DNA from: Nitratidesulfovibrio sp. SRB-5
Lineage (GTDB): Bacteria > Desulfobacterota > Desulfovibrionia > Desulfovibrionales > Desulfovibrionaceae
Length of the DNA: 64,000 bases
Reading direction: 5' to 3'
Assembly: GCF_019931275.1 (NCBI RefSeq)
Contig: NZ_JAIOTY010000001.1
Coordinates: 248,001 to 312,000, forward strand
The notes beneath the pieces were generated by a model that saw only the letters and a list, made by a program, of their open reading frames with translations, ran no database searches and had not been told where the DNA came from. This document shows, piece after piece, positions 1,837 to 58,163 of the stretch. Within the stretch, counting starts at the first letter, position 1. Each line of letters starts with the position of its first letter. The position numbers and the translations under genes are program-made.

Positions 1837-2244
1837 ATGCTGTATTGCGCCGTGCTGACCCCCCTTGGCGATGACGGATTCGCCGTGGACTTTCCCGATT
1901 TTCCCGACGCCGCCCCCGGCGACGTGGGTGCCGATACTCTGTGCGAGGCCTATGGCGTGGCCGAGGAAGCGCTGGCCGAGCACGTGCGCGGGCTGCTGGC
2001 CCGTGGCGAAACCCTGCCCGAACCCACCCCGCCGGACCGGTTGCCCGTGGCCCCGCCCGCCGGTGCCGCCCTGTTCATGGTGCCCGTGCGTCTGGAGCCG
2101 CGCCGGGTGGTCAAGGTAACCCTGACCATGACCGAGCAGGAAAAGGAAAAGCTGGATGCCGTGGCCGCCGACTGGAACATGAGCCGGTCGCAGGTGGTGG
2201 TGGCGGCGATTCGAGATCTCTGCGACCGGATGGGCTGCCCTTAG
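1837..2244 (+). CDS. Orphan HicB-like antitoxin / ribbon-helix-helix protein
   Basis: A 135-residue protein. The start at 1837 is chosen because GGAGG lies at 1827-1831, five bases before it; an in-frame extension upstream to 1612 is arginine-rich and looks like noise. The N-terminal half (YCAVLTPLGDDGFAVDFPDF) resembles the partly degraded RNase H fold of HicB. The C-terminal part (TLTMTEQEKEKLDAVAADW, then MSRSQVVVAAIRDLCDR) resembles a ribbon-helix-helix DNA-binding domain. HicB normally neutralises the small mRNA interferase HicA encoded beside it, but no hicA-like gene (short, with a GSH motif) is visible on either side. It may be a solitary DNA-binding regulator. The family call is fairly firm; the function is open. 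Confidence 0.7.
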   Translation: MLYCAVLTPLGDDGFAVDFPDFPDAAPGDVGADTLCEAYGVAEEALAEHVRGLLARGETLPEPTPPDRLPVAPPAGAALFMVPVRLEPRRVVKVTLTMTEQEKEKLDAVAADWNMSRSQVVVAAIRDLCDRMGCP

Positions 2245-2630
2245 CGTTTGCCGCGTCTTCCGACCGATAGCTGCGTCAGGCGGCCCTGACGTATCGGGCG
2301 AATACGAGAAGAGCGCGCTGCGGTCGCCACTCGTAATGCTCGAAGACGCGCATAACGATTGCCGCTATGCGCCCTCACGTCAGGGCCGCCTTCCTTGCTC
2401 TCGGCACGAAATCCGCGCCAAACGCAAGGTCGCGCCTTGGGCTGGAAAGATGATGACGCCGGGACAAACGCCCTCGCGGGCTGTGCCACGCGGTGGGATG
2501 CGGCCTTCCCTGTTCCCTCGCCAATTCCGCCCCGTCATGCGCGGGCCTGCTGACAGGCCGCGTCGGCGTGCCTATGGTGTGCCGATGCGGCGTTTTTCGT
2601 TCATCGCACGCCAGTTACGCGGAGTTGCCC
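2245..2630. repeat. Gene-free stretch with nested inverted repeats
   Basis: No credible gene is seen. CGTCAGG at 2274-2280 pairs with CCTGACG at 2285-2291 in a short hairpin. The 14-base arm at 2279-2292 recurs as its exact reverse complement at 2377-2390, so the two local and distant pairings are mutually exclusive. No T-run follows, so this is not a standard terminator. Confidence 0.5.
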
Positions 2631-8717: not shown

Positions 8718-8794
8718 GGCGGATGTAGCTCAGTTGGCAGAGCACCTGGTTGTGGCCCAGGTGGCCGTGGGTTCAAGTCCCATCATTCGCCCCA
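8718..8794 (+). tRNA. tRNA-His (GTG)
   Basis: A complete cloverleaf: acceptor GCGGATG/CATTCGC, D-arm AGCTCAGTTGGCAGAGC, anticodon stem CCTGG/CCAGG with anticodon GTG at 8752-8754, and T-arm with GTTCAAGTC. The extra 5' G (8718) faces C73 (8791), the G-1:C73 identity pair of histidine tRNAs. The 3' CCA is encoded. Confidence 0.98.
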
Positions 8795-46262: not shown

Positions 46263-46293
46263 AAAAAGGGGAAGGACCGTGTGGCCCTTCCCC
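46263..46293 (-). terminator. Rho-independent terminator, probably of the roo transcript
   Basis: GGGGAAGG and CCTTCCCC (46268-46275, 46286-46293) followed on the minus strand by TTTTT. It lies about 230 bases after the roo stop; the family B hairpin element lies between them, so that element would be in the roo 3' untranslated region. Confidence 0.85.
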
Positions 46294-46378
46294 GTGTGTC
46301 ATCATGGCGTGAACATGGCGTCAACCCGGCTTGCTCCGTGCGGCGTGACCGTGGGCGTCGCCATTCCTTCTTCTCTCA

Positions 46379-46523
46379 GGGGCTGTTTCCAAATTAGGAT
46401 TTTCGTTCGTTGGCGAGGAAAACGAGCCTGCCATGAGGGAGTATACTCTTCTCGTATTCGACCGACATGGCAGGCGAAGTTTGACGACGCCAACGGGCGA
46501 AAGGACAATTTGGAGACGGCCCC
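46379..46523 (-). repeat. Dispersed hairpin element, family B, copy 1
   Basis: A 145-base imperfect palindrome with three stacked helices: outer GGGGCTGTTTCCAAATT with AATTTGGAGACGGCCCC, middle around GTTGGCG/CGCCAAC, inner GCCTGCCAT/ATGGCAGGC. Unpaired AGGAAAACGA and GAAGTTTGACG are shared almost exactly with copy 2 at 55010-55140. The outer arm touches the roo stop codon (46523-46525). Confidence 0.85.
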
Positions 46524-47731
46524 TACCCTTCGCACTTGGCGGTCAGCGCGGCGGCCACGGTCTTGCCCAGTTCGAAGCACTTTCCGTAGGTGTCGTGGGT
46601 GGGCACGTGCTTCACCTTTACCGGTTCGGCGGGCAGTTCCATGCCCATGGATTCCAGCCATTCGGTGATGGCCTTCACCGATTCGCCGGACCAGCCGAAC
46701 GAACCGAACGCCGCGCCGATGCGGTTTTGCGGACGCAGGCCCTTCATGTAGGTGAGCATCTTGGCCACTTCGGGCAGGATGCCGTTGTTGTGGGTGGGCG
46801 AACCCACGATCACCGCGCCGCAGTCGGCCAGTTCGGTCATCACCGCGCTGTGGTGGTTGGCCTTCAGCCACATGATGCGGGTGGGCACGCCGCCCGCCTC
46901 CAGCCCGTCGGCAATGGCGCGGGCCATCTTTTCGGTGGAGTGCCACATGGTGTCGAACACGATGACGGCGCGCTTCTGCGGCTTCTGCTCGGCATAGCGG
47001 CGGTAGGTGTCGAAGGCGAACTGCACTTCGTCATGGCCGCGAAAGATCAGCCCGTGGTCGGGGGCCAGCATGTCGATGTCCAGCTTCAGCTCGGCGATGG
47101 CGTCCAGCGTCTTCAGCACGATGGGCGAGAAGGGCAGCACGATGTTGTGATAGTACTCCTTCATGGCGTGCAGCAGCGCGGAGCGGTCTATCTCGTCGGC
47201 GTAGCGTTCTGTGCTGGCGATGTTCTGGCCGAAGGCGTCGTTGCAGATCAGCAGCTTGTCTTCGGGAATGTACGACACCATGCTGTCGGGCCAGTGCAGC
47301 ATGCGCGTTTCCACGAAGGTCACGGTGCGCTTGCCGAGGCTGATGGAGTCGCCGGTCTTGACCACCTGCACGGGCCAGCCGGTGATGTCGAAGTGGGCTT
47401 CCATGGCCTTCAGGCCCATGGGCGAGCAGAATATCTTTTCGGGCTTGCAACGGGCCACCATTTCGGCCAGGGCACCGGCGTGGTCGGGCTCCAGGTGGTT
47501 GCAGACGATGTAGTCGATCTTCTCGGGCTCCACCACCTGGGACAGGCGGCAGAGCAGGGTGGGCAGGAATTCGTGCTTCACCGTGTCGAACAGGGTGACC
47601 TTTTCGTCCATGACCACGTAGGCGTTGTACGTGGTGCCCTGCGGCGACAGGGAATAGCCGTGGAAGTCGCGGCTGTTGTGGTCGACGACGCCGACCCAGT
47701 GGATGTCCTTCTTTATTTCAAGGGCGTGCAT
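46523..47731 (-). CDS. roo: Rubredoxin:oxygen oxidoreductase (flavodiiron protein)
   Basis: Reduces oxygen to water (and often NO to N2O) with electrons from rubredoxin, in the cytoplasm. The length, 402 residues, equals that of Desulfovibrio gigas ROO. The diiron site in the lactamase-like half is His79, Glu81, Asp83 and His84 (HLEPDH), with HWPDS, CNDAFGQ and APDHGLIF. The flavodoxin-like half starts about residue 255 (VIFDTMWHSTEKMA) and contains VGSPTHNNG and FGSFGWSGE. It is downstream of rbo and rub, its electron donor. Confidence 0.97.
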   Translation of the reverse strand: MHALEIKKDIHWVGVVDHNSRDFHGYSLSPQGTTYNAYVVMDEKVTLFDTVKHEFLPTLLCRLSQVVEPEKIDYIVCNHLEPDHAGALAEMVARCKPEKIFCSPMGLKAMEAHFDITGWPVQVVKTGDSISLGKRTVTFVETRMLHWPDSMVSYIPEDKLLICNDAFGQNIASTERYADEIDRSALLHAMKEYYHNIVLPFSPIVLKTLDAIAELKLDIDMLAPDHGLIFRGHDEVQFAFDTYRRYAEQKPQKRAVIVFDTMWHSTEKMARAIADGLEAGGVPTRIMWLKANHHSAVMTELADCGAVIVGSPTHNNGILPEVAKMLTYMKGLRPQNRIGAAFGSFGWSGESVKAITEWLESMGMELPAEPVKVKHVPTHDTYGKCFELGKTVAAALTAKCEG

Positions 47732-54788: not shown

Positions 54789-55009
54789 GGCGACTCCGGG
54801 CACGGACGGCTTTACGGCCAGGCTGAGGCCGTGGGAAGCAGTACGATCATGGCACGCTTTTTTTCCGTGCGCCACCGCAAATCATGCGGCGGACACCAGG
54901 TGACACGGCGGCCCCGGGGAGCGGGCCGGGCCAACGCAACCGGGGCGGGCCTTGCGGCCCGCCCCGTCGTGGATACGTGTGTTTTCAGCCTGTCGTGCCT
55001 CAGCGGCGA

Positions 55010-55140
55010 TCCCCAACGCCGGACTTTTGACTGTTGGCGAGGAAAACAAGCCTGCCATGAGGGAGTATACTTTTGTCGTATTCTACCGATATGGCAGGCG
55101 AAGTTTGACACTGCCAACGGTCAAAAGGACAAGTTGGGGA
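55010..55140 (-). repeat. Dispersed hairpin element, family B, copy 2
   Basis: A 131-base imperfect palindrome matching 46379-46523. Outer TCCCCAAC/GTTGGGGA, middle CTTTTGACTGTTGGC/GCCAACGGTCAAAAG, inner GCCTGCCAT/ATGGCAGGC. It begins 9 bases after the purL stop codon. The remainder of the gap to the kinase start (55141-55148 and 54789-55009) shows no other element. Confidence 0.85.
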
Positions 55141-55148
55141 ACTCCCGG

Positions 55149-58100
55149 CTACCAGTTGAAGGTAGCCTTGAACGAACGGGCCAGCCCTTCCACGCCTTCC
55201 GCCAGCAGGGGCGCGCCCTGAGCGGTGACGGCAAGGACCGCGTCCGCCGTCACCTCGCCGATGCAGGCGCAGGCGGACCCGGCAAACCGCGCCTCGAAGG
55301 CGGCGGCGTTGCCCGGCTTCACGGTGACCAGCAGGCGGCTGGCCGATTCGGAGTACAGCAGTTCCGTGGCGGTCATGTCGCATACGGCGGGCACTGCGGC
55401 GATGTCGCAGCGGGCGCCCAGCCGACCGCCCACGGCCATTTCGGCCAGGGCAACGGCAAGGCCGCCGTCGGACAGGTCATGGCAGGCGGTAACCAGGCCC
55501 GCGTTGATGGCCCCGTACAGCGCGCGGTAGCGGGCCATGGCGGCCAGCGCGTCCACCTGTGGCACCTGAGCGCCCACGGTGTTCAGCTGGTCGGCGATTT
55601 CGCTGCCGCCCAGTTCGCGCAGGGTGTCGCCCAGCAGGTACACCTTGTCGCCGGGCTGCTTGAAGTCGGAGGTGACGGCCCGGTTCACGTCGTCCATGAC
55701 GCCCAGTACCGAGTACAGCACCGTGGGCGGGATGGATATCTTCACCCCGCCGCCGAAGTAGTCGTTCTTCATGGAGTCCTTGCCGGAAACGCAGGGCACC
55801 CCGTAGGCAAGGCAGAAGTGGGCCAGGGCCTGGTTGGCGCGCACCAGCTGGGCCAGCTTGTACTGGCCGTCGGGCGTCTTTTCCGACTGCACCGGGTCGC
55901 ACCAGCAGAAGTTGTCTGTGCCGGCCATGCGGTCGGGGTCGCCGCCCACGGCCACGGCATTGCGCACCGCCTCGTCGATGGCGTTGGCCATCATCCAGTA
56001 GGTGTCGTAGTCGCTGAACTTGGGGCAGATGCCGTGCGAAAGCACGATGCCCGCCTGGCTGTCCAGCAGGGGGCGCACCACGGCGGCGTCCGCCGGGCCG
56101 TCGCGCTTGACGCCCACCAGCGGCTTCACCACGCTGCCGCCCTTCACCTCGTGGTCGTACTGGCGGATCAGGTATTCCTTGCTGCAGATGTTCAGGCGGC
56201 CCAGCATGGCGTGCAGCAGCGGGCCCTGTTCGGCGGGGGCCGGGTTCAGCCTGCATTCGCATTCCGGGGCGAAGGACGGGCGTTCCCACACGGCGGAAAG
56301 TTGCATCTGGGGCACGCCGTCATGCAGAAAGTCCATGTCCAGACAAGCCACATGCTTGTCGCCGTAGACCACGTGGAAGCGGCCCGATTCGGTGAATTCG
56401 CCCAGCGGGGTGAGCTCCACGTCCATCTCTTTGGCCAGGGCCATGAAGGCGTCCAGCTTTTGCGGCGGCACGGCCAGGGTCATGCGTTCCTGCGCTTCCG
56501 ACAGCAGGATTTCCCACGGGCGCAGGCCGTCGTACTTCAGCGGCGCGCGCGAAAGGTCCAGGCGGCAGCCGCCGGTATCCTGGGCCATTTCGCCCACGGA
56601 CGAGGACAGGCCGCCCGCGCCGTTGTCGGTGATGGCGTTGTACAGGCCCATGTCGCGGGCGCGCATGATGCAGTCGTACATCTTGCGCTGGGTGATGGGG
56701 TCGCCGATCTGCACCGCCGTGGCCGGGGAGCCTTCGTGCAGTTCTTCGGACGAGAAGGTGGCGCCGTGGATGCCGTCCTTGCCGATGCGCCCGCCCGCCA
56801 TGACGATGACGTCGCCGGGCAGGGCCTTCTTGTACCAGCCGGGACGCCCGTGGATTTCCCGGGGCAGCATGCCCACGGTGCCGCAGTACACCAACGGCTT
56901 GCCGAGGTAGCGTTCGTCGAACACGATGGAGCCGTTGACGGTGGGGATGCCCGACTTGTTGCCGCCGTGCTCCACGCCTTCACGCACGCCTTCCATGACC
57001 CGGCGCGGGTGCAGCAGGCGGGGGGGCAATTCACCCTCGTGGAAGGGCGAGGCAAAGCAGAACACGTCGGTGTTGCACAGCAGTTCCGCGCCGAGGCCGG
57101 TGCCCATGGGGTCGCGGTTCACGCCCACGATGCCGGTCAGCGCGCCGCCGTAGGGGTCCAGCGCCGAGGGGCTGTTGTGGGTTTCCACCTTGATGCACAC
57201 GTCGTGGGTGTCGTTGAAGGCGATGACCCCGGCGTTGTCCTTGAACACCGAACGGCAGAAGTCGCGCTCGCCCAGGCGCTGGCGGATGGTCTTTGTGGAG
57301 CCCTGGATGTACGTCTTGTACAGGCTGTCCACCACCTCGCGGCGGCCCGTTTCGCGGTTCTCGTAGTCGATGCGGGCAGAAAATATCTTGTGCTTGCAGT
57401 GCTCGGACCAGGTCTGGGCCAGCACCTCGATTTCCGCGTCGGTGGGGTCGACGGGCAGGCCGAGGGTGGCGCGGTCGGCGCGCACGGCGGGGTCCGCGTA
57501 GTAGGCGCGGATGGCGTGCAGTTCTTCCAGGCTGAGGGCCAGGGTGTTCTCGCGGCTGAAGGCCAGCATGGCCGCATCGTCCATGGAGGACAGCGGGATT
57601 ATGGCCACCTCGTCGCTGGATGCCCCGGTCACCTGCGCGGCCTGCGGGACGAAGCCGGGTTCGGCGGCCCATTCGTCGCGGCTTTTCAGGGCAAAACGCT
57701 GGATAAGCTCGTTGGCCAGCAGGTCGCGGGCGATGTGCTCCATGTCCGCGCGGGACAGGGGCGTGTCCGCGGCGCAGGTCACGTGGAACTGGGCCGAGGT
57801 GTACACGGCGATGGAGCGGCGGTCGGCCCCCAGCACCAGGGCCAGGGTGTCGCGAGCGGTGCGGCCCTCGTTGTCGGTGACGCCGGGGCGAAAGCCCACT
57901 TCCAGCACCCAGTCCGCCGGGGCCGTGCCCTGCGGGGCGGGCAGCAGGTCCAGCGCGGCGTCCTGCAGCACGGGGTCGTGCAGCACGCCCTGGGCCACCA
58001 TGCTGGCCAGTGCGTCTTCGGAAAGGCCATCCACGGTGAACACCCTGACAAGGCGCACGGATTCAACGTTCAGGCCCAGCGAGGCCCGGATCTTGGCGGC

Positions 58101-58163
58101 GACGTTGCGGCCCACGGTATCGGTGACCTGCGGCCGAAGGCCAACTTCTATGCGCCGAAGCAT
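55149..58163 (-). CDS. purL: Phosphoribosylformylglycinamidine synthase, PurL with N-terminal PurS-like region
   Basis: Converts FGAR to FGAM with ATP and glutamine-derived ammonia in purine synthesis. It is 1004 residues. The N-terminal 180 residues contain two PurS-like ferredoxin folds (LRRIEVGLRPQVTDTVG and WVLEVGFRPGVTDNEG). The two PurM-like halves follow, with TWSEHCKHK (catalytic His), KVETHNSPSALDPYGG, NGAGGLSSSVGEM and VSGKDSMKND. It lacks the C-terminal glutaminase domain of E. coli PurL (1295 residues), so a separate PurQ must exist elsewhere. Confidence 0.95.
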   Translation of the reverse strand: MLRRIEVGLRPQVTDTVGRNVAAKIRASLGLNVESVRLVRVFTVDGLSEDALASMVAQGVLHDPVLQDAALDLLPAPQGTAPADWVLEVGFRPGVTDNEGRTARDTLALVLGADRRSIAVYTSAQFHVTCAADTPLSRADMEHIARDLLANELIQRFALKSRDEWAAEPGFVPQAAQVTGASSDEVAIIPLSSMDDAAMLAFSRENTLALSLEELHAIRAYYADPAVRADRATLGLPVDPTDAEIEVLAQTWSEHCKHKIFSARIDYENRETGRREVVDSLYKTYIQGSTKTIRQRLGERDFCRSVFKDNAGVIAFNDTHDVCIKVETHNSPSALDPYGGALTGIVGVNRDPMGTGLGAELLCNTDVFCFASPFHEGELPPRLLHPRRVMEGVREGVEHGGNKSGIPTVNGSIVFDERYLGKPLVYCGTVGMLPREIHGRPGWYKKALPGDVIVMAGGRIGKDGIHGATFSSEELHEGSPATAVQIGDPITQRKMYDCIMRARDMGLYNAITDNGAGGLSSSVGEMAQDTGGCRLDLSRAPLKYDGLRPWEILLSEAQERMTLAVPPQKLDAFMALAKEMDVELTPLGEFTESGRFHVVYGDKHVACLDMDFLHDGVPQMQLSAVWERPSFAPECECRLNPAPAEQGPLLHAMLGRLNICSKEYLIRQYDHEVKGGSVVKPLVGVKRDGPADAAVVRPLLDSQAGIVLSHGICPKFSDYDTYWMMANAIDEAVRNAVAVGGDPDRMAGTDNFCWCDPVQSEKTPDGQYKLAQLVRANQALAHFCLAYGVPCVSGKDSMKNDYFGGGVKISIPPTVLYSVLGVMDDVNRAVTSDFKQPGDKVYLLGDTLRELGGSEIADQLNTVGAQVPQVDALAAMARYRALYGAINAGLVTACHDLSDGGLAVALAEMAVGGRLGARCDIAAVPAVCDMTATELLYSESASRLLVTVKPGNAAAFEARFAGSACACIGEVTADAVLAVTAQGAPLLAEGVEGLARSFKATFNW

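Follow-up and report, generated by a model that had tools for sequence, protein, structure and literature searches.

A dispersed hairpin element at stop codons in Nitratidesulfovibrio and other Desulfobacterota, probably a non-autonomous mobile repeat

The sequence analyzed here is a 64,000-nt stretch of genomic DNA (the window; window coordinate = genome coordinate minus 248000, with the window's genome designated G000). It contains a roo-type gene, whose name we took from an initial annotation of the same DNA, and a hairpin-forming element whose end overlaps the roo stop codon (Table 1). The initial annotation had described this element as structured, with covarying helices, and its structure proved to be real. 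As RNA, 46379-46523 is predicted to form a single long hairpin much more stable than its shuffled counterparts (-88.4 kcal/mol on the + strand, with none of 200 shuffles as good; z in Table 1). The - strand also folds strongly (-67.7 kcal/mol, z -8.9, 0 of 200 shuffles as good), and when the same stretch was folded as DNA the + strand was again the stronger (-43.7 versus -36.3). The internal loop at 46415-46419 corresponds to conserved columns in the alignment of copies, and the same loop is present in other genera. A covariance model of the element matched this copy at 46378-46527 with 175 bits.

Table 1. Copies of the element in the window, parts of the copy beside roo, and neighboring genes
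Feature	Position	Strand	Remarks
Copy 3, with internal palindromic module	2234..2432	-	63.3 bits; genome G000:C1:250234-250432
Copy 1, 3' of roo	46379..46523	+	Fold z -12.2; + is the strand with preserved fold, antisense to roo
Outer helix P1, 5' arm	46379..46395	+	Partner 46507-46523; sequence very variable among copies, pairing mostly kept
Helix P2, 5' arm, 15 bp	46400..46414	+	Partner 46489-46503; two U.G pairs that are C.A on the opposite strand
Internal-loop strand, conserved	46415..46419	+	GAGGA in copy 1, AAGGA in most copies; opposite GACGAC 46483-46488
Helix P3, 5' arm	46420..46423	+	Partner 46479-46482
Helix P4, 5' arm (GCCTGCCAT)	46426..46434	+	Partner 46467-46475
Apical part	46435..46466	+	GAGGGAG / GACCG internal loop and short hairpin
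roo stop codon TAG	46523..46525	-	Overlaps the end of copy 1
roo-type gene	46523..47731	-	ODP beta-lactamase and flavodoxin domains
Copy 2, after purL	55002..55151	+	151.5 bits; extent includes outer stem
purL-type gene	55149..58163	-	AIR synthase and FGAR-AT linker domains; TAG stop 55149-55151

Two further copies lie in the window. The copy after purL had been placed at 55010-55140; it exists, and with its outer stem it is longer at both ends. Its fold has z scores of -8.4 and -6.6 on the two strands (0 of 200 shuffles as good on either). The middle-helix changes reported between copies 1 and 2, from C-G to T-A and from T.G to A-T, are both present in the sequences. The account of the outer helix was right in part, the purL copy also lacking pairs at the inner end of that helix relative to copy 1. 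Only these two copies had been noted, and a third was missed. It lies at the TAG stop of a + strand gene (1837-2244; stop offset +8), and its folded strand, the - strand, is antisense to that gene. Allowing up to 3 mismatches, the window has two occurrences of a 20-mer, GCCTGCCATGAGGGAGTATA, compared to a mean of 0.00 in 100 shuffles. At gathering scores, Rfam models identified nothing in the window beyond one tRNA gene (8719-8791; RF00005).

The element is dispersed in many copies. BLAST detected many full and split copies in G000, and copies in all seven other genomes of the genus. A covariance model built on 36 copies (R1) gave 96 matches at E ≤ 1 in G000, of which 92 were distinct once three opposite-strand echoes and one weak row had been removed. 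When relatives were searched with this model, as the initial annotation had suggested, there were 64 to 105 matches per genome at E ≤ 0.001 in all 8 genomes of the genus, with at most 150 candidates scored per genome. A second model, built from 44 diverse copies (R2), matched 47 of 150 genomes and 13 of 36 genera in the order, and 48 of 297 genomes and 35 of 199 genera in the phylum; these scans had stricter filters and were limited to 20 and 10 scored candidates per genome, respectively, so their copy numbers are lower bounds. No Rfam family was found for the element at E ≤ 5 or for 17 loci at E ≤ 0.1. For an exact 21-base piece of the element, the named records among the matches listed were Nitratidesulfovibrio or Desulfovibrio sp. 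There was no element match in plasmids or phages, and one exact 21-base pattern of the element was absent from viral contigs; we therefore rejected a plasmid, phage or virus origin. Tandem arrangements also occur, with five head-to-tail copies (unit ~152 nt) after one stop codon in one genome (L329 1501-2256; G063:C1:13110-16259) and three adjacent copies at another locus (L264 818-1175).

Pairing in the stems is maintained while their sequence varies. Among the 44 diverse copies, in an alignment fitted to the covariance model and thus favoring the structure, 93.5% of 2,104 cells pair versus 69.4% in shuffles, and both sides have changed in 44 of 49 pairs. The covariation score was 0.640, compared to 0.205 when shuffled and at most 0.159 when partners were slid. 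In this test, of the kind proposed in the initial annotation, 0 of 500 shuffles reached any of the measures (kinship among sequences can beat shuffles even without structure). A similarly fitted alignment of 57 matches from other genera, 2 of them echoes, gave 93.1% pairing, changes on both sides in 45 of 49 pairs, and a score of 0.713 (slid, ≤0.156). The slid controls and a free MAFFT alignment agree with the result from the model-fitted alignments. Three loop motifs, AGGA/GGAC, AAGGAA/UGACG and GAGGGAG/GACCG, are kept while the stems vary, the last being altered in more distant genera. Loop columns are strongly conserved across the 36 copies, as had been stated for the unpaired strands of the first two, and the view that the element is more than a simple terminator was borne out by covarying structure together with conserved loop bases.

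The two strands are not equivalent in how well they keep the fold. Wherever one strand forms a G.U pair, its complement has an A.C mismatch. In 79 copies from G000, read antisense to the upstream gene, there were 271 G.U and 65 A.C cells, and without the four dominating columns there were 129 and 62. In 32 copies mostly from outside the family, the antisense reading gave 113 G.U and 21 A.C. The cells in all of these counts are not independent events. Judged by this asymmetry, the strand with the preserved fold is antisense to the gene, which is the window's + strand for both roo and purL. The initial annotation had proposed an RNA of the roo 3' untranslated region; the preserved pairing lies antisense to roo and not on the mRNA strand.

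The position and orientation of the copies relative to genes are strikingly constrained. Using gene calls from a codon score trained on four window genes, and counting a copy as at a stop when the offset from the model start was -5 to +14, we found that 56 of the 64 copies in G000 with ≥60 bits start at the stop of a same-direction gene, none at that of an opposite gene, and 8 at neither. For all 92 copies the numbers were 64, 0 and 28, and many of the 28 are low-scoring and module-split, with a same-direction stop 41-146 nt upstream. Non-coding TA sites in the window are stops in 28 of 260 cases, compared to the 56 of 64 copies at stops (p 1e-45), and non-coding CTAG sites in 7 of 14, a half that falls short of the 88% for copies. 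The frequency of stops at TA or CTAG sites was thus rejected as the sole explanation, being too low for the position and silent on the orientation. The 56 stops beside copies comprise 44 TAG, 9 TAA and 3 TGA, and 68 other stops comprise 38 TAG, 11 TAA and 19 TGA. TGA is scarcer beside copies (3 of 56 versus 19 of 68, p 0.0009), which a requirement for TA would predict. Among 55 copies from outside the genus, 31 lie against a sense open frame of ≥100 codons (2 of them against an opposite one as well), compared to 2.8% of random windows; none adjoins only an opposite frame, and 24 adjoin neither. In five genomes a copy, of two subtypes, directly follows the same gene (L203 1501-1648 and the orthologous L295, L296, L297 and L309), which resembles rpmI by its C-terminus.

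Comparison of orthologous gene ends revealed both filled and empty sites. We read 50 loci (24 sites, four genomes) of roughly 96 orthologous hits by eye and found 28 filled, 5 with remnants, and 17 without a copy at the stop. The covariance model confirmed 26 of the 28 filled ends; the other two, both module-split, had no match at E ≤ 1 (L319) and a match with E 0.045 (L324). One of the 17 copy-less ends had a weak match (L317, E 0.22), and two hold an opposite-orientation element further downstream (L363, L366). By eye, the 17 end in TAG (12), TAA (4) or TGA (1), so a missing TAG is unsupported as the explanation of copy-less sites. G004 and G005 lack a copy at the roo site, G007 has a remnant, and in G001 the site is filled by a copy bearing extra hairpin modules. 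At purL, G004 again lacks a copy, the G007 site shows an internal deletion, and the G001 site is filled by a copy with modules. Because copies are dispersed and the element is absent or a remnant at roo in three of the four relatives, it is not a conserved RNA of the roo 3' untranslated region; with ~90 copies beside many different genes and roo sites lacking one, a regulatory RNA specific to roo, or to roo and purL, was rejected.

The boundaries of the insertions were also apparent from such comparisons. At L193 the filled site reads TA-GGGACTG..CAGCCCC-TA-GGATATCACC and the empty site TA-GGGGAATCGCC. By analogy with filled and empty sites, we infer that, of the roo TAG, the T and A come from the gene and the G is where the element begins. 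In older copies the second TA has often changed (TG, TT, CG). One stop codon can carry different subtypes in different species (e.g., L197, L239, L250) where the gene ends are 92-98% identical. At one site (L189 versus L357), the copy and its downstream flank appear identical in two genomes where the gene end is just 93% identical; judging by its C-terminus, this gene resembles mraY.

A young burst of copies was found in a genome of another genus, G139, where 32 of 51 matches are ≥97% identical. Matching dinucleotides flank all 27 distinct copies that were parsed (30 loci), 26 with TA and 1 with TC. The copy with TC on both sides points to a duplication rather than to a fixed end of the element. 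The orientation of this burst, counted from open frames without a coding score, was less strict than in G000: with frames of ≥70 codons, 10 copies were sense only, 5 opposite only, 2 both and 10 neither, and with frames of ≥150 codons the numbers were 10, 2, 0 and 15. Because the young burst is less strict, the strict orientation in G000 is not explained by insertion alone, and these open-frame counts suggest that, elsewhere, selection following insertion has filtered the orientation. Several G139 copies adjoin palindromic repeats of another kind, which begin CTAGAGC, at shared CTAG sites (L371-L387, L391-L420), so this target may serve more than one family of repeats. G139 also has two oppositely oriented full copies ~1.2 kb apart (G139:C1:2723388-2724844; L404, L411), and the stretch they enclose resembles a small composite element.

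The element occurs many times per genome, is present or absent at orthologous sites, lies in one orientation on stop codons in G000, and, on the strand antisense to the gene, keeps a specific secondary structure whose internal loops are conserved. It is probably a non-autonomous, MITE-like mobile element of ~145 nt that inserts at TA, has spread in part of the Desulfobacterota, and has kept its folded strand. An enzyme acting in trans would insert it at TA dinucleotides and thereby duplicate these 2 bp. Where the TA is part of a stop codon, the insertion would be harmless, since the element begins with G (or A) and the stop would become TAG (or TAA) and survive. Inserts elsewhere, or oriented so that the stronger fold is in the mRNA, would tend to be lost. 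Loops and stems would be kept on one strand if the element passes through a folded single strand (ssDNA or RNA) for recognition and copying. Like MITEs, the element is short, high in copy number and dispersed, with paired ends as terminal inverted repeats and a 2-bp duplication that is concordant in the G139 copies and degraded in older ones. No autonomous IS sharing its terminal repeats was found among element-end pairs at IS length in G139, G000 and G007, save for neighboring full copies, or by a search for the IS630-type DDE_3 domain (PF13358) in G000 and G139. The transposase families searched were the IS630-type DDE_3 and Y1. The outer inverted repeats differ in sequence between copies and are thus ill-suited to a transposase that reads them by sequence, while the conserved loops would fit recognition of the folded strand. 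We consider mobile-element status likely, a grading from which the molecular route is left apart. A bolder version, which we regard as rather doubtful, is that this is a new kind of bacterial mobile element, recognized as a folded single strand with conserved internal loops (a protein-bound RNA or ssDNA) and inserted repeatedly, preferentially into stop codons and in a fixed orientation, across the phylum; if true, it would be a bacterial counterpart of a SINE, or of an attC site without its cassette.

It is unlikely that the element is REPIN-like and moved as folded ssDNA by an HUH (Y1/RAYT-type) transposase, with the asymmetry marking the strand that the enzyme reads. Such an enzyme would fit the strand-specific folding, and GTAG-REPs, as described in PMC3733652, lie 3' of genes and often supply the TAG stop. 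The likeness thus extends to gene-end placement, TAG supply and a possible folded single strand. However, REPs are palindromes of 20-40 bp with a one-sided GTAG tag, whereas this element is one 145-nt hairpin with internal loops and matching dinucleotides on both sides, including the TC copy in G139; there is no fixed GTAG tag at one end and, in a comparison with palindromes of 20-40 bp carrying a GTAG or CGTC tag, the base before the TA of the stop varied. Y1_Tnp matches were present in G139 (13), G033 (4) and G123 (6), but there were none in G004, G005 and G007, all of which have element copies, and G000 has only a decayed one. Of 20 Y1 transposase loci retrieved, 18 were searched, just two of which (L435, L436) hold elements, and these loci were rejected as the source. 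The decayed gene in G000 (G000:C1:239748-240005; L424) is of the Y1 (IS200/RAYT) type, has one in-frame stop, and lies 8 kb before the window.

A host function as an antisense structured RNA, which would meet transcripts entering the gene from its 3' end, bind a protein and stop antisense transcription, is quite improbable. The strict orientation of 56 to 0, the position at gene ends and the pairing kept on the antisense strand would all be in keeping with it, as would the changes between same-site copies of different species (34 G.U changes versus 13 A.C changes, in overlapping pairs that are not independent). Against it, copy-less sites beside the same genes are frequent, and the gene downstream of the 56 stop copies is about as often same-direction (18) as convergent (15), with none called for 23. 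There was also no promoter-like base bias in 120 antisense positions upstream of 64 copies, where just a C at -2 (58%) stood out, and an independent antisense RNA gene with a promoter at a fixed distance was rejected.

The initial annotation had proposed an element of the mRNA 3' end, which could be a terminator, a stabilizer or a processing site on the sense strand. We think this very unlikely. The copies do stand immediately after stop codons and the sense strand still folds strongly, but it has C.A mismatches where the antisense strand keeps U.G pairs. Intrinsic terminators consist of a GC-rich hairpin with a U tract, and among 40 copies a U tract did not consistently follow the stem (there is a T run in L033). 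Moreover, in 3 of 3 relatives without a full copy at roo, a GC-rich, terminator-like hairpin with a T-rich tail lies ~35-80 nt past the stop. A GC-rich hairpin with a T tract is also present 3' of roo in the window, at 46263-46296 on the - strand, and because of the similar hairpins in these three relatives, it is the more likely roo terminator. Finally, it is extremely improbable that template switching perfected imperfect palindromes and paired changes arose without selection on structure: stems do change wholesale (L206 and L312 differ by 15 pairs changed on both sides, with gene ends 97% identical), but switching would also perfect U.G pairs, two adjacent ones of which are retained in 48 of 77 and 45 of 76 copies, and the loop motifs are kept across the phylum.

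The ~90 hairpins in G000, and the similar numbers in the genus, are thus explained as one family, and further evidence would be needed before any of them is interpreted as a regulatory RNA of a particular gene. Paired changes between copies of a repeat do not alone imply a host regulatory RNA. As a mobile repeat, the element covaries very strongly, has a clear strand and is tied almost absolutely to stop codons. Two questions thereby become testable: which factor recognizes the fold, and why the surviving inserts are mainly those on stops and in one orientation.

The probable mobile element shares features with several known systems. Integron attC sites lie directly after a stop codon, fold from the strand opposite to the gene, and are sequence-poor and structure-rich with a variable tip. 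In attC, a gene and its site move as a cassette, with an integrase nearby; here the gene ends occur with and without the element, which alone is gained next to resident genes. The MIRUs of mycobacteria are small repeats that follow the orientation of the operon and occupy stop codons between genes of the same direction; their targets are TGA-containing overlaps, and they are not known to have the structure of this element. ERIC sequences have TA ends. Correia elements have terminal repeats, target duplication and TA at their ends, RUP has TA-containing targets, and ERIC has orientation-dependent effects on transcripts, according to PMC2229807. RUP, Correia/NEMIS and ERIC resemble the element in being ~100-200 bp, high in copy number and able to form a long stem-loop. 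Unlike these, the element has covarying stems instead of a kept sequence, internal loops kept across the genera of a phylum, and one orientation on stop codons, and an IS630-type enzyme was not found in G000 or G139. In the open-licence literature we found no description of the repeat in Desulfovibrio or its phylum, which does not prove absence.

PMC3049150 describes the streptococcal BOX repeat as modular, with inner units that vary, and as predicted to fold as RNA. BOX, which is made of boxA, boxB and boxC sequence modules, has tandem boxB units, whereas the palindromes of this element are placed at several junctions. In split copies, extra palindromic modules lie at the tip (the apical part of copy 1) or at the junctions. 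A second palindromic module, with a core like CCGTTAGGCGAGCTTGCGAGCCTTACGG, was seen at the tip and junctions of many copies in G000. There are sometimes several CCGTTAGGCGAGCTTGCGAGCCTTACGG-like modules per copy, giving nested hairpins, as at L018, L023, L024, L027 and L029 and in the window at 2234-2432.
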